DNA of 64,000 nt from Haloferax mucosum ATCC BAA-1512. GTDB lineage: Archaea; Halobacteriota; Halobacteria; Halobacteriales; Haloferacaceae. The position numbers were made by a program, and so were the translations under genes. The notes beneath the pieces are model-generated. The model ran no database searches. It saw only the letters and a list, made by a program, of their open reading frames with translations, and had not been told where the DNA came from. The stretch lies in NCBI RefSeq assembly GCF_000337815.1, contig NZ_AOLN01000018.1:372001-436000 (forward strand), read 5' to 3'. Positions within the stretch are counted from its first letter, which is position 1, and every line of letters begins with the position of its first letter. Positions 12,751-48,671 of this stretch are shown one piece after another.

Positions 12751-13929
12751 TCAGTCGAATCGGAGACCGTCCCGGAGTTCGCTCGCACGGGCAAGCAGTG
12801 TCTCAACGTCGTCCGTCTCGTCGTCGCCGACGACGGTGAGATGACCCATTTTGCGAAGCGGTCGAGCCTCGTCTTTGCCGTACCAGTGGAGCGAGACGCC
12901 CGGTTCGGAGAGTGGTTCGTCCAATCCGCCGAGACGCGCCGGACGTGGTTCGGAAACAGTGCTGAGCACGTTCGTCATCACAGTCGGCGAGCGTCGTGTC
13001 GTCGCACCGAGTGGCCACCCGAGGACGGCGCGCACGTGTTGTTCGAACTGGGAGCAGAGTGCGCCCTCGATGGTCCAGTGGCCCGAGTTGTGCGGGCGCG
13101 GCGCGACCTCGTTTACGAGCACGTCACCGTCTGTGGTCTCGAACAGTTCGATGCCGAACACGCCGCGACCGGGGAGATGCGAAAGCACCTCGCGTGCGAC
13201 CCGGTCGGCTTCGGCCCGAACGTCGTCTGTCGTCCGCGCCGGGACGACCGTCTCGCGGAGAATCTCCGCTTCGTGGACGTTCTCGCCGACGGGGAAGGTC
13301 CGAATCTCGTCGTCGCCGCGGACGCCGATAACGGACAGTTCGCGCTCGAAGTCGACGAAGGCCTCGGCCATCGCCGGGCCGCCGACGGCCTCGATTGCAT
13401 CGGCCGCGTCGTCGGGGTCGGTGACGGGGACGTTGCCGCGACCGTCGTAGCCGCCAGTTCGGGCCTTCAGCATGACCGACCCGAACTCGTCGAGGGCGGC
13501 GCGAAGGTCGGCCGCATTATCGACGCGGTGGAACGGCGGAATCGGAATCCCCGCGTCGCCGAACGTCCGCTTCTGGACGAGTTTGTCCTCGATGGTCCGG
13601 AGCGCGTCGGGTGACGGGTGAACGTCGATTCCCTCCTCGGCGGCGAGTTCGTCGAGTAGGTCTGGCTCTGCGAGTTCGATTTCGAACGTCAGTGCATCGG
13701 CCCGTGCGGCGAGTGCTGCCATCGCCTCGGGGTCGTCGAAGTCGCCGACGATTTGGTCGGCGACAGCCGCGGCCGGGCAGTCTGGTGTCGGGTCGAGTAC
13801 GACGAGTTCGACGCCGAGCGGAGCGGCGGCCTCGCCGAGCATACGCCCGAGTTGGCCCCCACCGACGACGCCGAGTGTGGGTCCGGGTACAGTGACGGTC
13901 ACACCCGCCGATTTAGGATGTCGATGCAT
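12751..13929 (-). CDS. purK: 5-(carboxyamino)imidazole ribonucleotide synthase
   Basis: An ATP-grasp enzyme of about 392 residues that carboxylates AIR with bicarbonate and ATP. Visible motifs are LGVVGGGQLGRM (nucleotide-binding Rossmann start), KARTGGYDGRG (ATP-grasp loop), FERELSVIGVRG and NEVAPRPHNSGHWT (metal and substrate loop). ATG 13929 lies about 25 bp after a TATA-like CTATTTAA (13951-13958), which fits leaderless translation. GTG 13902 is an alternative because another AT-rich box (TTTATGC near 13930) precedes it. PurK consumes bicarbonate, which is notable beside the bicarbonate-handling genes elsewhere in the window. Confidence 0.94.
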   Translation of the reverse strand: MHRHPKSAGVTVTVPGPTLGVVGGGQLGRMLGEAAAPLGVELVVLDPTPDCPAAAVADQIVGDFDDPEAMAALAARADALTFEIELAEPDLLDELAAEEGIDVHPSPDALRTIEDKLVQKRTFGDAGIPIPPFHRVDNAADLRAALDEFGSVMLKARTGGYDGRGNVPVTDPDDAADAIEAVGGPAMAEAFVDFERELSVIGVRGDDEIRTFPVGENVHEAEILRETVVPARTTDDVRAEADRVAREVLSHLPGRGVFGIELFETTDGDVLVNEVAPRPHNSGHWTIEGALCSQFEQHVRAVLGWPLGATTRRSPTVMTNVLSTVSEPRPARLGGLDEPLSEPGVSLHWYGKDEARPLRKMGHLTVVGDDETDDVETLLARASELRDGLRFD

Positions 13930-13950
13930 AAACGTTGCCACCCCACCCGA

Positions 13951-24693: not shown

Positions 24694-24758
24694 TTGCCGG
24701 CGAACAACTCGAACCGTGTTCGTTCGCACTCTCCCCTGAAAACCGCTTCGGGATGCCG

Positions 24759-24765
24759 TTTTAAG
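24759..24765 (+). promoter_or_regulatory. TATA-like box of the RuBisCO gene
   Basis: TTTTAAG, centred 28 bp before ATG 24790; predicts a leaderless RuBisCO mRNA. Confidence 0.6.
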
Positions 24766-24789
24766 CACTGTGGGGGCGTAGGCGAGGCT

Positions 24790-26034
24790 ATGGGTATCAC
24801 GTACGAAGACTTCCTCGACCTCGACTACGAACCGACTTCCGAGGACCTCGTTTGCACCTTCCGTATCGACCCCGCGACGGGCATGTCAACGGAGGCGGCC
24901 GCGAGTCGCGTCGCGTCGGAGTCCTCAAACGGAACGTGGGCGGCGCTCCAGACCGGTGCAGACTTCACCGACATGGGCGCGACGACCTTCGCTATCGACG
25001 GCGACAGTATTCAGGTCGCCTACCCAACCGGGCTGTTCGAACCCGGCAACATGCCGCAGGTGCTCTCCTGTATCGCCGGGAACATCATGGGGATGAAGGC
25101 GGTCGATAGCATCCGCCTCATGGACTGCGAGTGGCCCGAGTCCGTCGTCTCGTCGTACCCCGGGCCGCTTTACGGGTCGTCGGTCCGCGAGGAGGTGTTC
25201 GGCGTCAGCGACCGCCCAATCACGGCGACGGTGCCAAAGCCGAAAGTTGGTCTCTCGACGGCCGCACACGCGCAAGTCGGCTACGACGCGTGGGTCGGCG
25301 GCGTGGACCTGTTGAAAGACGACGAGAACCTGACCGACCAAGCGTTCAACCCCTTCGCCGACCGCCTCACTGAGTCGCTGTCGCTCCGCGACGATGCCGA
25401 AGACGAGACCGGCGAAAAGAAATCGTATCTCATCAACGTCACCGCCGACACCCAAACGATGCTTGACCGGGTTGACGAAGTGGCCGCACAGGGCGGTGAG
25501 TACGTGATGGTTGACATCATCACTGCCGGGTGGGCCGGTCTCCAGACCGTCCGCGAGCGCACCGAAAAACACGGTCTCGCAATCCACGCCCACCGCGCCA
25601 TGCACGCCGCCTTCGACCGACTGCCGACTCACGGCGTCTCGATGCGGGTGCTCGCACAGATTTCGCGGCTCTGCGGTGTGGACCAACTCCACACCGGGAC
25701 CGCCGGACTCGGAAAACTCGCAAACGAGGATACCGTCGGTATCAACGACTGGCTACGACGCGACCTCTACGGCGCGAACGACGTGCTTCCGGTGGCCTCC
25801 GGCGGTCTGCACCCGGGACTCCTGCCCGACTTGCTCGACGCGACGGGGACGAACGTCTGTATCCAACTCGGCGGGGGAATCCACGGCCATCCCGACGGCA
25901 CCAAAGCGGGCGCAGTGGCGCTTCGGTCGGCCATCGACGCCTACGTCGAAGGGACGTCGATTACCGAGGCCGCCGACGAAACGCCCGAACTCGCGGTCGC
26001 CCTCGACAAGTGGGGCACCGAGACGCCACGATAG
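24790..26034 (+). CDS. rbcL: type III ribulose-1,5-bisphosphate carboxylase/oxygenase
   Basis: A 414-residue form III RuBisCO. Active-site residues can all be placed: K150 and K152 (TVPKPKVG), the carbamylated K176 with D178 and E179 (GGVDLLKDDEN), H268 (IHAHRAMHA), loop-6 K309 (GTAGLGKLAN) and S337 (ASGGLHPG). In archaea lacking phosphoribulokinase this enzyme fixes CO2 on ribulose-1,5-bisphosphate derived from AMP, yielding two 3-phosphoglycerates. The two upstream enzymes of that route are encoded at 28535-29488 and 29578-31056. The gene has its own promoter and a T-run after the stop. Confidence 0.96.
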   Translation: MGITYEDFLDLDYEPTSEDLVCTFRIDPATGMSTEAAASRVASESSNGTWAALQTGADFTDMGATTFAIDGDSIQVAYPTGLFEPGNMPQVLSCIAGNIMGMKAVDSIRLMDCEWPESVVSSYPGPLYGSSVREEVFGVSDRPITATVPKPKVGLSTAAHAQVGYDAWVGGVDLLKDDENLTDQAFNPFADRLTESLSLRDDAEDETGEKKSYLINVTADTQTMLDRVDEVAAQGGEYVMVDIITAGWAGLQTVRERTEKHGLAIHAHRAMHAAFDRLPTHGVSMRVLAQISRLCGVDQLHTGTAGLGKLANEDTVGINDWLRRDLYGANDVLPVASGGLHPGLLPDLLDATGTNVCIQLGGGIHGHPDGTKAGAVALRSAIDAYVEGTSITEAADETPELAVALDKWGTETPR

Positions 26035-43073: not shown

Positions 43074-43556
43074 ATGGCTAACGACGACATCGACGACGTA
43101 GACCGCTCGATTCTCCACGCCTTGCAGGACGACGCTCGGAACATGTCGTCCGGCGATATCGCCGAGCGGGCGGGTACCTCGGGGAGTACGGTCCGAAAGC
43201 GAATCCAGCGCCTCGAAGACCACTCGGTCATCAAGGGGTACCGCGCCGAAATCGACTATCAGGCCTCCGGGTATCCGCTTCGGATGCTGTTGTTCTGTAC
43301 CGCACCGATACCCGAACGCGGAGCCATAATCGACGACGTCCTCGCTATCGACGGCGTCGTCTCCGTGCAGGAACTCGTCACGGGTGAGAAGAACCTCCTC
43401 GTAACCGTCATCGGCGAAAACGACGACGACGTCACGCCGGTTGCACAGGAGTTGCTCGAACTCGGACTGACCGTCGCCGACGAGGTACTCGTTCGAAGCC
43501 ACAAGACGACGCCCTTCGGCGGGTTCAACAGCGACCAGTCCTCGACGACCGAGTGA
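43074..43556 (+). CDS. Lrp/AsnC family transcriptional regulator
   Basis: A 160-residue protein with the AsnC-type helix-turn-helix (DVDRSILHALQDDARNMSSGDIAERAGTSGSTVRKRIQRLE, about 8-48) and a C-terminal RAM-like ligand domain (about 60-135; LVTGEKNLLVTVIGEND). These form octamers and respond to amino acids or other small ligands. The palindrome GTACGTAC just upstream of the ATG may be an autoregulatory site. It is immediately upstream of, and co-directional with, the dab operon, so it is the best local candidate for control of dab. Confidence 0.92.
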   Translation: MANDDIDDVDRSILHALQDDARNMSSGDIAERAGTSGSTVRKRIQRLEDHSVIKGYRAEIDYQASGYPLRMLLFCTAPIPERGAIIDDVLAIDGVVSVQELVTGEKNLLVTVIGENDDDVTPVAQELLELGLTVADEVLVRSHKTTPFGGFNSDQSSTTE

Positions 43557-43918
43557 CCGGGTTCTCGTCGCCACGGCAAACGACTACTTTCTCCTCCACT
43601 CTGAATCCAGCCGAACGGTTTGATTGCAGAATTCCAGAGGCACGAACAGTTTGTGAACCACGGGTCGGGTTGCTTTGAACGACGAGCGAGAGCGAGACGA
43701 CACACCCCGGGTGAACCGTGTGTTCAGTCTGGAAACGCCGATATAACGTTATTCGGTAACATAGACCATAATGTTCTTCCATGCGCAATATAGAGAACAA
43801 ATTGTTCGGATAGAAGGTTTTAATAGCGAATATGTTCGTTCTACAGGCGAGAAAAAACAGTCAGTGATTGGCCTACCCGCGTCGAGGGTGGCTCACGGAC
43901 TGCGACAGCCCACAAACG
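43557..43918. promoter_or_regulatory. 362-bp regulatory region upstream of dabB
   Basis: No gene or RNA is recognisable. The first 180 bp are GC-rich; from about 43740 the DNA becomes AT-rich and holds a cluster of symmetrical elements: ATAACGTTAT (43743-43752), the TGTTCT/AGAACA pair (43772-43777 and 43794-43799, centres 22 bp apart), the palindrome GAACAA-A-TTGTTC (43795-43807), and TGTTCG again at 43833. A TATA-like TTTTAATA (43818-43825) predicts a start near 43847 and a leader of about 70 nt before ATG 43919. Confidence 0.55.
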
Positions 43919-45406
43919 ATGACAGACGAGACGAAATTCACTCGGGTCGGATCGCTACCGAAGACGACGACGGCGACGTCGCGGCTCCCGCTCGTTCTCA
44001 CGCGAATCGTGTGGGTCCTGTGGGCGCTGAGTCTCGTGGTTGCCACCCTCCGACTGTCTAGTTCCGAGAGCTGGTCGCTTTTGGGACTGTTCTCTATCGA
44101 CGGCCTGACAGTCGTGATGTGGGTCGTCGTGACGTTCTTCAGCGGAATCGTCCACAGTTACTCGCGGCGCTATATGGCCGGCGATAGCGCGCTCGACAAA
44201 TTCTTCGGCAACGTGTTCGCGTTCACGCTCGTCGTGATGGCGCTGGTTGCGACGGACTCGCTCGTCGTGTTCGTAGCGCTGTGGCTAACGATGGGACTGG
44301 TAATGTCCGCCCTCATCGGCCACGTGGACGCGTGGGACCACGCGCGGACGGCGGCTACACACGCACTTCGGTACTTTACGGGGAGCAGTGCACTGCTGGC
44401 GGTCTCCTTCGCGGCCTTGTGGTGGCAAACCGGCGCGTCAACGGTCTCTGCTGTCGCCTCGGCAGAAATTGAACCCTCCGGAGCCGTTCTGTTTGCGGTT
44501 GCGATGCTGTTGCTGGCGGCGATGATTCAGTCCGCACTGCTCCCGTTCCACACGTGGTTGCTGTCGTCGATGACGGCGCCGACGCCCGCGTCGGCGTTGA
44601 TGCACGCCGGGTTCGTCAACGCGGGCGGCATCCTGTTACTCCGGTTCGCGCCGGTCGTTACCGCCGACGGTAGTTTCATGCTGGCAATCGTGGCCGTGGG
44701 CGCGACGAGTGCCCTCGTCGGAAAGCTCCTCAAATCCGTCCAGACGGACGTCAAGGGGAAACTCGGCTGTTCGACCGTCGGGCAGATGGGGTTCATGTTC
44801 ATGCAGGCGGGACTCGGGTTCTTCGGCGCCGCCATCACCCACCTCATCGTACACGGATTCTACAAAGCGTATCAGTTCCTCTCCGCCGGCGGCACTGTCG
44901 AACACGCCAGTCCCGATGGGACGTACGCCGCGAAACAACCGGTGGGAGTCGTCGGGTTCGCGGTGACCGTCCTGACGGCACTCGCAGGCGGCGTCCTGTT
45001 CGCCGTCACAACTGGGGAGGGAACCGCCTTCGATAGCGGCGTACTACTCGCGGGACTCGTCGTGCTGACCACGATGCACGCCACCCGCGAGATGGTACGC
45101 CACGCGGCGCTTCCCGCGTTCCTTCGGTACGGAGCCATTCCGCTCGTGTTCCTGCCAGCAATCGGGGTGTACGCGCTGGTGTACAAGGCCATCGAGCACG
45201 CGTTAGTCGGGGTTCCGTTCGTCACGGCACCCACCGAACTGACACCCGTTCACGCCGTCGTCGCCGCGGCGTTCGTCTTGGCGTACGTCACCATCGAAAG
45301 CGGGGTCTACCGCCGTAGCACCCGCCTATATATGGCGCTCGTGAATGCGACGCGCCCCGCGTCCGGAACCATCGTAACAACCAGAGAGGAGTACAATGAG
45401 CACTAA
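43919..45406 (+). CDS. dabB: inorganic carbon transporter subunit DabB
   Basis: A 495-residue membrane protein of the NuoL/MrpA antiporter family: about 13 helices, LPFHTWLLSSMTAPTPASALMHAG (the HTW...PTP loop), GKLGCSTVGQMGFM and HGFYKAYQFLSAGGTVE. The FYKAYQFLSAG segment and the DabA-type neighbour separate it from complex I subunits. In the DAB system this subunit is thought to couple cation flow to CO2 hydration by DabA. Start ATG 43919 fits the length; an upstream TTG in frame is unlikely. It overlaps dabA by 11 bp. Confidence 0.93.
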   Translation: MTDETKFTRVGSLPKTTTATSRLPLVLTRIVWVLWALSLVVATLRLSSSESWSLLGLFSIDGLTVVMWVVVTFFSGIVHSYSRRYMAGDSALDKFFGNVFAFTLVVMALVATDSLVVFVALWLTMGLVMSALIGHVDAWDHARTAATHALRYFTGSSALLAVSFAALWWQTGASTVSAVASAEIEPSGAVLFAVAMLLLAAMIQSALLPFHTWLLSSMTAPTPASALMHAGFVNAGGILLLRFAPVVTADGSFMLAIVAVGATSALVGKLLKSVQTDVKGKLGCSTVGQMGFMFMQAGLGFFGAAITHLIVHGFYKAYQFLSAGGTVEHASPDGTYAAKQPVGVVGFAVTVLTALAGGVLFAVTTGEGTAFDSGVLLAGLVVLTTMHATREMVRHAALPAFLRYGAIPLVFLPAIGVYALVYKAIEHALVGVPFVTAPTELTPVHAVVAAAFVLAYVTIESGVYRRSTRLYMALVNATRPASGTIVTTREEYNEH

Positions 45407-47882
45407 CGAAACAGTCCGCGACACCATCGAACAGGCAGCAACCAGCGTCGGGTCAGTCTGGCCGCTTCACTCCTTCGTGACGGCCAACCCGCTCAGCGGG
45501 TTCGAAGACCGCCCGTTCCACGAGGCCGTCCAACAGGCCGAACGCCTGTTCGGCGGCCGCGGCTATCCGAGTGCAGACGTGTTCCGTGCCGCGCTCGACA
45601 CGGGTCAAATCGACCGGGAAACGCTTCGAAGCGAACTGCGCGCACACGGCTACGAGGAAGACCCATCGACCCTCTTGGCGCGCATGGAGACCCAATCGGA
45701 GTCGGCCACCGAGGACGACGAGTCGAGCGAACACGACGTCGTTGACGCGGTCTTGACGAAGTGGCTCGCCGCCTTCCTCGACGAGGGACACGCTTCGTGG
45801 TCGATGCCGAACCGCGACCACGGGTTCTACGCCGCGTTCCGTTCCGTGGCGCGCCACGACGGGGCGCTTCCTGACCCGAGCGCCGTCGCCACCTATCCGG
45901 ACGACCCGACCGAAGCAATCGAACAGGTCGTCTCGGCGTATCCACGCGACCAGTTGGTGGACCTCTTCGAGTTCCACTTCGGCAGACTGCCGGGGTGGAC
46001 CGGATTCGTCAAACAGCGGGCCAAAAGCGGAGGCGACTGGCAGGCGACGTACCCCATCACGCTCACTGAGTATCTGGCCGTCCGGCTGGTTCTCACGGAC
46101 CTCTTCGACGCGCCGCTCGGCCCGACGGATTCCACGGAAGAATCGATAGGGACCGAACGTGGTCTCCACCGCGACGCCGAAGTCCCGCTTCCCGAACTCT
46201 GGTTGACCGCGTGGGAGACCACGTATCGCACCGAACTGGTCGAGGCGATTGCCGACCAGAATCAATCGACAGCCGCGTCGGAAGGCGGCGAGCCAGCCAT
46301 CGCGCTCGAAGACGGTGGTCGCCCAGATGCACAGCTCGTCTTCTGTATCGACACGCGTTCGGAGGTCATCCGTCGGCACGTCGAGAACGCCGGTGCCTAC
46401 GAGACCTACGGCTACGCGGGCTTCTTCGGCATTCCGATGCGCTACGAGGCCTACGACGCCGAGGTCACGACAGATGCTTGCCCACCGATTCTCGACGCAC
46501 AACACTACGTCGCCGACCGTCCGTCCGAGGGATGCGACCACGAACACGAGCGGTACGACACGTGGTCGAACACGACCAGTGCCGCCGGGAACGTCCTCAA
46601 GTCACTCACCTCGAACGCGGCGACCGTATTCAGCTTCGTCGAGAGCACCGGCGTCGGCTACGGGGCCGCACTCACGGCGCGGACGCTCTTTCCGTCGCGC
46701 GTGTACGACTTCCTCACCGGTGCTTCAGAGCGGGTCCCATCCCACACAGACTTCTGCGAACCGGCACTCGACCACGACCCGACCGCCGACGGCGACCTGC
46801 CACGCGGCCTGTCCACGGCGGAGAAAGTCGAGTACGCCGCGACCGCGTTCGAACTGATGGGATGGGACGAATTCGCGCGCATCGTCGCGTTCGTCGGCCA
46901 CGCCAGTCAGACCGCGAACAACCCGTTCGAATCCAGCCTTGACTGTGGTGCCTGCGCCGGAAACGCCGGCGGCCCGAACGCTCGTGTCCTCGCGGCCATC
47001 TGCAACGACGACGAGGTCAAGGCCGCACTCCGCGACCGCGGATTCGACATTCCCTCGGACACCATCTTCGTCGCCGGCGAACACAACACGACGACGGACG
47101 AGGTGACGCTCTTTACCGAATCTGTTCCGGAGAGTCACGAGGCCGACATCGAACAGCTTCGTTCCGACCTCGAAACGGCCCGGGACGGTTCGGCCGCAGA
47201 GCGGACTGAATCGATGGACACGTCGTCACCGGGAACTCGGGAAGTCGAACGCCGCGCCGCAGACTGGGCCGAGACGCGCCCGGAGTGGGGACTCGCCGGT
47301 AACGCCGGCTTCGTCGTTGGTCCCCGGTCGCTGACGCAGGGTTTCGACCTCGACGGTCGTTCGTTCCTTCACTCGTACGACTGGCGGGACGACGAGTCGG
47401 GCGAGGCCCTCGCGGCCATCGTGTCCGGGCCTATGGTCGTCACCCAGTGGATAAACATGCAGTACTACTTCTCGACCGTAGATAACGCGGTCTACGGGAG
47501 CGGGTCGAAAATCACCCACAACCCGGTCGGGAACGTCGGCGTCTATCAGGGGAACGGAGGCGACCTGATGACCGGACTGCCGCTCCAGTCGGTCATGGCG
47601 GCCGACGACGACCCGTATCACCAACCGCTCCGTCTCTCGGTGGTGATTCACGCCCCGGTCGAACGCGTGACGTCCGTCCTCGCGGAGAACGCCGCAGTCA
47701 CCGAACTCCTGGACAACGGCTGGCTCTCGCTAACCGTCGTTGACCCGACACAGAACGCCACTGCGTTCGAGTACGACGAGGACCTAACGTGGGTGGCCAC
47801 CGAGGCCGACGACAGACGCGACGGGGCCGAGACACCGGAACCGACCGCCGAACGTGTCGCGCCGCCTGCGGCAGACGACTGA
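45396..47882 (+). CDS. dabA: inorganic carbon transporter subunit DabA (DUF2309)
   Basis: An 828-residue soluble protein of the DUF2309 family. The carbonic-anhydrase-like zinc site is recognisable: C317 and D319 (VFCIDTRSE), H502 (FVGHAS) and C517 (LDCGAC). The C-x-D spacing and the 15-residue H-to-C spacing equal those of the Halothiobacillus protein. The N-terminus has the family start VWPLHSFVTANPLSGFEDRPF. DabAB is proposed to hydrate CO2 vectorially to bicarbonate in the cytoplasm using the ion gradient. GAGGAG precedes the ATG inside dabB. The C-terminal 35 residues are acidic and low-complexity, a halophilic tail. Confidence 0.94.
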   Translation: MSTNETVRDTIEQAATSVGSVWPLHSFVTANPLSGFEDRPFHEAVQQAERLFGGRGYPSADVFRAALDTGQIDRETLRSELRAHGYEEDPSTLLARMETQSESATEDDESSEHDVVDAVLTKWLAAFLDEGHASWSMPNRDHGFYAAFRSVARHDGALPDPSAVATYPDDPTEAIEQVVSAYPRDQLVDLFEFHFGRLPGWTGFVKQRAKSGGDWQATYPITLTEYLAVRLVLTDLFDAPLGPTDSTEESIGTERGLHRDAEVPLPELWLTAWETTYRTELVEAIADQNQSTAASEGGEPAIALEDGGRPDAQLVFCIDTRSEVIRRHVENAGAYETYGYAGFFGIPMRYEAYDAEVTTDACPPILDAQHYVADRPSEGCDHEHERYDTWSNTTSAAGNVLKSLTSNAATVFSFVESTGVGYGAALTARTLFPSRVYDFLTGASERVPSHTDFCEPALDHDPTADGDLPRGLSTAEKVEYAATAFELMGWDEFARIVAFVGHASQTANNPFESSLDCGACAGNAGGPNARVLAAICNDDEVKAALRDRGFDIPSDTIFVAGEHNTTTDEVTLFTESVPESHEADIEQLRSDLETARDGSAAERTESMDTSSPGTREVERRAADWAETRPEWGLAGNAGFVVGPRSLTQGFDLDGRSFLHSYDWRDDESGEALAAIVSGPMVVTQWINMQYYFSTVDNAVYGSGSKITHNPVGNVGVYQGNGGDLMTGLPLQSVMAADDDPYHQPLRLSVVIHAPVERVTSVLAENAAVTELLDNGWLSLTVVDPTQNATAFEYDEDLTWVATEADDRRDGAETPEPTAERVAPPAADD

Positions 47883-47942
47883 TTGGCTGGGTCATCGCCG
47901 CCCTTCAGCAGTGATGCCCTGCGGTGAACTGTTTCCCTCCGA

Positions 47943-47950
47943 GATATTTA
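47943..47950 (+). promoter_or_regulatory. TATA-like box of the carbonic anhydrase gene
   Basis: GATATTTA centred about 29 bp before ATG 47976. The gene can be transcribed on its own, leaderless, besides read-through from dabBA. Confidence 0.55.
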
Positions 47951-47975
47951 CCGCAGGAGAGCGTAGTCCGACACA

Positions 47976-48671
47976 ATGGCGAATCCGGTACTAGAGTCGC
48001 TCGTGGCTGGAAACAAATACCACGTCGAGCACTTAGACGTAGACTACTTCGAAGGCGTTCGGGACACGCAAAGACCACAGATCGTCTCTATCGGGTGCTC
48101 TGACTCTCGGGTACCCGTCGAAGCACTCTGGAACACCAACAAGGCGGGGGAACTGTTCAAGTCGGTCAACGTCGCCAACCAGGTCTGGACAGCAGTCAAC
48201 GACACACTCGTCGTCAACGACGTCGTCGGCTATGCGGTGGCCTCACTCGGCGTCTCGGATATCGTCGTCCTCGGACACACCGGGTGCGGCGGCATCAAAG
48301 CGGCCTACGAGTTCGTCGTCGGTGACGACGCGAAAGACCTCCCGGTGGCCCTCGAAGCCGCCGTCTCGCGTCTCGTTCCGCTGGTCAAAGAGGCACGAGA
48401 ATTGGGCCTCTTCGACGAAGAGACCTCGACTGACGACGCCGTCAACCGACTGGTCGAGTACTCGGTCGTCCGCCAAGTCGAGTTCCTCGTCGAGAGCGAC
48501 GAGGTCCCCGAATCCACCGACTGCTGGGGGTTCGTCTACGACTTCCAGCATGCCTACGGCGACGACGACGGCGCGGCGTACCTCGTCGCCGCGAACGGCG
48601 ATTCGGACCCAGAAACTATCGTCGAGCGGGTCCCCGACGAGTTCGCTGACCGCGTGAAATCGCTTCGGTAG
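47976..48671 (+). CDS. beta-class carbonic anhydrase
   Basis: A 231-residue beta-carbonic anhydrase. Zinc ligands C41, H101 and C104 (GCSDSR and GHTGCGG) and the catalytic D43/R45 dyad are present. It would equilibrate CO2 and bicarbonate in the cytoplasm. The family's usual RNAGN segment is here SVNVANQV (63-70), so it is a divergent member. No signal peptide. A cytoplasmic carbonic anhydrase would leak an accumulated bicarbonate pool back to CO2, so its pairing with DabAB needs explaining: supplying CO2 to RuBisCO is one possibility, differential expression another. Confidence 0.92.
   Translation: MANPVLESLVAGNKYHVEHLDVDYFEGVRDTQRPQIVSIGCSDSRVPVEALWNTNKAGELFKSVNVANQVWTAVNDTLVVNDVVGYAVASLGVSDIVVLGHTGCGGIKAAYEFVVGDDAKDLPVALEAAVSRLVPLVKEARELGLFDEETSTDDAVNRLVEYSVVRQVEFLVESDEVPESTDCWGFVYDFQHAYGDDDGAAYLVAANGDSDPETIVERVPDEFADRVKSLR

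Follow-up and report, generated by a model that had tools for sequence, protein, structure and literature searches.

How does a heterotrophic archaeon come to keep a DAB-type CO2 pump directly beside a carbonic anhydrase (CA), and what controls that pump? The question is raised by a locus of Haloferax mucosum ATCC BAA-1512 that lies in a stretch of 64,000 nucleotides (NCBI RefSeq assembly GCF_000337815.1, contig NZ_AOLN01000018.1, positions 372,001 to 436,000 of the forward strand), here called the window; all window coordinates refer to that full stretch. The initial annotation had placed an Lrp regulator, DabB, DabA and a beta-CA at this locus, and we confirmed all four genes where it had put them, each by a Pfam match, as well as the dabB-dabA overlap (11 bp) and the 93-bp gap from dabA to the CA gene. 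What it overlooked was the regulation of dabBA. We found that the pump, an Lrp gene of its own and a three-site array are inherited as a set throughout the class Halobacteria; the last two make up a predicted regulator-operator module that is undescribed as far as the open literature searched shows. We consider it likely that lrp, the array, dabB and dabA make up a relocatable inorganic-carbon cassette, switched by Lrp, that sits beside a resident beta-CA gene. The features are as follows (PWM, position weight matrix; HTH, helix-turn-helix).

43074..43556, + strand: lrp, an Lrp/AsnC-family regulator and the predicted dedicated regulator of dabBA (Pfam HTH_AsnC-type, 5e-13)
43762..43839, + strand: three-site operator-like array upstream of dabB (array model R1, E = 1.1e-16)
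43761..43779, no strand assigned: array site 1, ATAGACCATAATGTTCTTC (PWM 23.7 bits)
43792..43810, no strand assigned: array site 2, AGAGAACAAATTGTTCGGA, a near-perfect palindrome just 5' of the TATA box (PWM 18.3 bits)
43818..43825, + strand: dabB TATA box TTTTAATA, assigned from sequence and from the TTTAATA conserved in the alignment
43822..43840, no strand assigned: array site 3, AATAGCGAATATGTTCGTT, overlapping the end of the TATA box and the expected start region (PWM 6.8 bits)
43919..45406, + strand: dabB, NuoL/Mrp-like proton-conducting membrane subunit (PF00361, Proton_antipo_M, 1.8e-35; DabB2 structure match 4.8e-40)
45396..47882, + strand: dabA, cytoplasmic beta-CA-like catalytic subunit (PF10070, 885 bits; DabA2 structure match 1.2e-103)
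47944..47950, + strand: probable TATA box of the beta-CA gene itself, ATATTTA, ~28 bp before the ATG, with similar boxes in congeners
47976..48671, + strand: canonical cytoplasmic beta-CA, a resident gene (PF00484, 1.5e-25; Q32, C41, D43, R45, H101, C104)

The best start codon for dabB is the ATG at 43919, which agrees with the N terminus of its relatives.

The link between the pump and its regulator was followed through 194 Halobacteria genomes, the set searched for DabA, CA, Lrp and the array. The Lrp matches listed split into orthologs, defined by an identity of 64% or more and E < 1e-60, and paralogs of 52% identity or less with E > 1e-47. Orthologs occurred in 124 of the 125 genomes with DabA versus 1 of the 69 without it (both, 124; DabA only, 1; Lrp only, 1; neither, 68), and in 122 of the 124 genomes with both, lrp immediately preceded dabBA in the same orientation. 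The Fisher value for this association (2e-50) is not a fair probability, because the genomes are related. We took a within-genus comparison as the fairer test and found that Lrp presence followed DabA exactly in all 14 genera polymorphic for DabA (p = 6e-5). The window Lrp could not be assigned to the characterised haloarchaeal Lrp or LrpA1, as its scores lay far below the cut-offs of the two models (39 bits against 190 for Lrp and 46 bits against 250 for LrpA1). It had no Pfam RAM-domain match; NCBIfam Lrp-type models, at sub-cut-off scores, aligned with residues 6-128, past the HTH. Five bacterial plasmid DAB loci differ from the window in that a LysR gene occupies the place of lrp. About one-quarter of the haloarchaeal loci carry a reverse-strand amidohydrolase gene (chlorohydrolase/deaminase-like; L120 3100-4116, for example) between lrp and dabB.

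The centres of the three sites upstream of dabB stand 30 and 31 bp apart in the window, around the TATA box. When 45 loci were aligned on the central site, the centres lay 29-31 and 31 bp apart, the third site followed immediately downstream of a conserved TTTAATA box, and the GTTC core of site 3 was kept in at least 90% of the loci. An unsupervised count of gapped palindromes found CGAAC-n5-GTTCG in 20 of 81 dabB upstream regions, versus at most 2-3 in shuffles, and related nested palindrome forms in further dabB upstream regions. Furthermore, a palindromic PWM reached 14 bits or more in 88% of dabB upstream regions, compared with 1.8% of 300-bp segments drawn at random from these loci.

From the 45 loci we built R1, a sequence-only model of the array. 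Of the 194 genomes searched with R1, 123 yielded a match at E < 1e-6, for a total of 124 matches. All but one of these matches (123) lay directly upstream of dabBA; the remaining one came from a fragmented assembly, where it lay near Lrp and on a separate contig. The 69 genomes without DabA gave no match at this threshold, and two matches occurred in a single genome, G049, which has two dab loci. Among 50 named loci, some of whose species overlap the training set, R1 was positive at 40 of 40 haloarchaeal loci with a complete upstream region and at 0 of 7 bacterial loci. The composite pattern of sites 1 and 2 occurs once in the genome. The single palindrome GAACANNNTGTTC, tried as a definition of the target, proved too loose, with 7 sites in the genome, and was rejected; the array alone is specific.

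We infer from this co-occurrence and from a resemblance to a known operator that the array is bound by Lrp. Ss-LrpB of Sulfolobus solfataricus binds cooperatively to three regularly spaced 15-bp palindromes at a control region and wraps the DNA (PMC4046817), and the window likewise has three regularly spaced palindromic sites, here predicted ones, by an archaeal Lrp-family gene. Unlike the Ss-LrpB operator, the array has a different consensus, stands at the promoter of a target (dabB), is apparently single-target and is conserved across a class. Three Lrp dimers would sit around the dabB TATA box, one on each palindrome at intervals of about three helical turns, possibly binding cooperatively, and Lrp would adjust the expression of dabBA to a presumed ligand that signals inorganic-carbon supply. 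The sign of control may be read from the layout: site 3 sits in the start region, so that repression would be favoured when the array is fully occupied, but sites 1 and 2 stand on the 5' side of the TATA box, the position from which archaeal activators work, and the array might therefore switch both ways.

The pump under this proposed control is a new member of an already known family. DabA covers the PF10070 profile in full (positions 1-747), and the residues that we mapped from mutants of the DAB2/DAC system of Halothiobacillus neapolitanus (PDB 9rd0, PMC13144422) are all kept, namely C317, D319, R321, H502, C517 and E416. The zinc site proposed in the initial annotation (C317, D319, H502 and C517) aligns with C351, D353, H524 and C539 of the solved DabA2 (PMC13144422). 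The zinc ligands C317, H502 and C517 and the dyad of D319 and R321 are invariant in 82 haloarchaeal rows; E416 is the finger-helix Glu (E444 in DAB2), and L633 (L658 in DAB2) replaces the Gln of carbonic anhydrases. Of the 14 functional positions checked in DabA, 11 show the same residue throughout the 82 haloarchaeal and 7 bacterial rows, and the remaining three (S356, R653 and W656) differ in a few. All seven DabB proton-path residues (S225, H229, K279, S285, H308, H312 and K316) are kept and invariant in the 82 haloarchaeal rows. The window system is like DAB2/DAC in its DabA2-DabB2 families, C-H-C zinc site, Asp-Arg dyad, L658, E444 and proton path, and unlike it in its host, a heterotrophic archaeon without a carboxysome, and in DabB K235, which is Q. 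These residues indicate that the locus encodes a DAB-type pump with an intact active site in a heterotroph. In operation, DabB would pass protons down the membrane gradient, driving DabA to hydrate CO2 one way to bicarbonate, which phosphoenolpyruvate (PEP) carboxylase, PurK and other carboxylases of the heterotroph would use.

Several points weigh against this account of an Lrp-switched, proton-driven pump. The K235/D185/R182 ion pairs of the DAB2 DabB are not present in the window DabB, which has Q204, S157 and G155 there; K235 is replaced by Q in 81 of the 82 haloarchaeal rows and its partners are lost too, so coupling may differ. Haloarchaeal cells, moreover, live in molar sodium. The Staphylococcus aureus MpsAB has been argued to use sodium (PMC13144422). 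The loss of the ion pairs throughout Halobacteria, together with the sodium-rich setting, would suit a cation-coupled bicarbonate symporter or a membrane-potential device like MpsAB, in place of a proton-driven vectorial carbonic anhydrase. We regard this as unlikely: the DabA zinc site, the Asp-Arg dyad, the E444 equivalent and the full DabB proton path are all invariant, the ion-pair positions are likewise variable among bacterial DabBs, and DAB2 ion-pair mutants still function and are partly active (PMC13144422). Because of this bacterial variation and the partial activity of the mutants, the loss of the ion pairs appears to be a difference of tuning and not of kind, modulatory and not defining. 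On the side of regulation, site 3 is weak in the window, the 45 loci trained R1, so that its independent tests are the remaining loci and the DabA-less genomes only, and the link between Lrp and the array is drawn from co-occurrence and from likeness to a known tripartite Lrp operator. With that link statistical, and with the reverse-strand amidohydrolase gene lying between lrp and dabB in many loci, another conserved regulator might bind the array, and Lrp would then be a linked passenger or would control, for example, the neighbouring amidohydrolase. We find this highly improbable, since genomes gain and lose Lrp and the array along with dabBA, the array geometry fits the tripartite operator of Ss-LrpB (PMC4046817), and no further strong array target was found in the genomes searched.

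The CA gene stands apart from the cassette in several respects. The window beta-CA is complete and canonical, with zinc ligands C41, H101 and C104, the dyad of D43 and R45, and the transition-state Gln Q32. An A/T-rich box similar to its probable TATA box, at a similar spacing, was found at L033 and L035 and at the unlinked Haloferax CA genes L121-L124. The R1 array was absent upstream of the window CA and of the linked CA genes in the loci scanned, and where a CA-like gene lies between lrp and dabB, the R1 matches stand before dabB. Because the CA gene has its own promoter and no array, it and dabBA could be expressed separately. The order calc-MTF-bPH1-bPH2-CA-KDPG aldolase-HtrA-Usp (KDPG, 2-keto-3-deoxy-6-phosphogluconate) is shared by five other Haloferax genomes, in which the Lrp-dabB-dabA block is missing (an empty site) and another DAB lineage is carried elsewhere in the genome. 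It follows from the empty site and this different lineage that the Lrp-dabBA cassette appears to be a movable unit and the CA gene a resident. The window DAB stands in a lineage of its own, ~62% identical to the DAB of most other Haloferax genomes sampled, and occupies another site, next to the resident CA; the named DabA proteins closest to it come from Haloferax larsenii (89%), H. elongans (88%), H. profundi (85%) and H. marinum (83%).

The initial annotation had instead read the genes as one island, in which DAB and the adjacent CA would jointly deliver CO2, partly to a type III RuBisCO 18 kb off. The RuBisCO and PurK genes that it listed are indeed in the window:

24694-26034: RuBisCO, type III (TIGR03326, 662 bits)
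12751-13941: PurK

The genes of the locus are adjacent and on one strand, and 32 of 80 loci have a beta-CA at ~6 kb or less from dabBA, many more than the chance expectation of ~0.4% per locus would give, with the linked CAs spanning several positions, orientations and CA lineages. Against a single island stand the separate promoter of the CA gene, which lacks the array, and the five Haloferax genomes that have CA and its neighbours without the cassette. In Haloferax species with DAB at another place, RuBisCO is still ~20 kb from CA, so that RuBisCO goes with the CA neighbourhood and not with the pump, and its distance from the pump is uninformative for that reason; the adenosine monophosphate (AMP) pathway is suggested by a gene for ribose-1,5-bisphosphate isomerase close to RuBisCO in the window. 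We rejected a functional RuBisCO-DAB linkage on these distances and hold joint delivery of CO2 by one island to be distinctly unlikely. The suggestion that DAB serves biosynthetic carboxylations in a heterotroph stands as far as the DAB-type pump, its active site and the presence of PEP carboxylase (in the genome) and PurK as bicarbonate users are concerned; its RuBisCO part falls away. A purely accidental adjacency, the cassette having landed by a resident CA to which it has no functional coupling in the window, is a more serious contender, although we lean somewhat against it. The empty site, the 48 of 80 loci with no nearby CA and the array-less CA gene all speak for it, but the CA linkage recurs far above chance. 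In addition, L056 and L063, from other genera of the family, also have the cassette next to this CA, placed or oriented differently, and the DabA of L056 belongs to a different branch from that of the window, which suggests repeated association. The recurrent pairing of cassette and CA thus suggests selection for proximity.

Archaeal DAB homologues had been called scattered, which does not describe Halobacteria, where DabA is present in 125 of the 194 genomes. In a phylum sample of 247 genomes, DabA occurred in 27, and among the matches listed, all were Halobacteria. The initial annotation had also argued that a pump beside a cytoplasmic CA would make a futile cycle. Beta-CA is present in 175 of the 194 genomes, and the coexistence of pump and beta-CA is the rule in Halobacteria, with both in 108 genomes, DabA alone in 17, CA alone in 67 and neither in 2; among the 19 genomes without CA, 17 have DabA. 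Firmicutes MpsAB and CA resemble this system in that heterotrophs use DAB-type transporters for inorganic carbon, interchangeably with CA, but there the two "rarely coexist" and their co-expression slightly lowers growth (PMC8552792), unlike the 108 of 125 DabA-bearing Halobacteria with a beta-CA. The family assignment itself is not new, because a review has already placed DACs in heterotrophic Halobacteria (PMC10880623) and HVO_2410/HVO_2411 of H. volcanii, of the same family and genus, have been annotated as dabAB, a predicted CO2 transporter (PMC8305020). That account is annotation only and does not describe a regulator or operator. With the module, an archaeal CO2 pump that has been annotated but not studied would become a genetic switch open to testing in a tractable genus, and the predicted circuit, of one regulator and one target, is kept throughout a class. 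The module could reveal how a heterotroph senses inorganic carbon and explain why a pump and a CA, said to be mutually wasteful, coexist, and the operator could serve as a marker for other inorganic-carbon genes.

Such a use of the operator is hinted at by G128, the only genome with an Lrp ortholog and no DabA, in which beta-CA is also absent. An array-like element there (L159; R1 16 bits, E = 0.02; PWM sites of 8.0, 6.2 and 20.5 bits, 30 bp apart) stands before genes for a NarK-like major facilitator superfamily (MFS) transporter, a universal stress protein and Lrp (L159 3482-6087 and 6222-9061), and the cluster adjoins cooC/cooS-like CO dehydrogenase genes. As a single case, the element is a lead only. 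It would be a long step, and one that we doubt, to conclude that Lrp is a dedicated inorganic-carbon sensor-regulator whose operator finds unknown transporters and that the G128 MFS protein is a new kind of bicarbonate importer. The MFS gene was rejected as a general replacement for DAB: its relatives, in 22 genomes, are present in genomes with DabA too, and the ones checked lie apart from DAB.

Some further loci depart from this pattern. One genome (G178) has a second DAB copy (L096), 48-50% identical and in the order dabA then dabB, at which neither Lrp nor the array was found. A contig labelled as from a Bradymonadaceae metagenome-assembled genome (JAQCND010000525.1; L223) carries a haloarchaeal-type Lrp-dabB-dabA locus at 60% identity and is probably a mis-binned haloarchaeal contig. 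The Mycolicibacterium aubagnense plasmid DAB locus (NZ_CP122998.1; L114 2454-7465, on a mobilizable plasmid) is like the window in having DabB-DabA and then CA on the same strand; it differs in being bacterial, in a 106-aa protein between DabA and CA, in a divergent CA and in having no Lrp annotated. The beta-CA-like genes between lrp and dabB in L045 (a truncated copy), L046, L074, L087, L094 and L100, from five families, form a deep separate clade that keeps Cys-His-Cys at the zinc-ligand positions and loses the Asp-Arg dyad and the Gln, with CSDSR changed to CSMEG or similar motifs.

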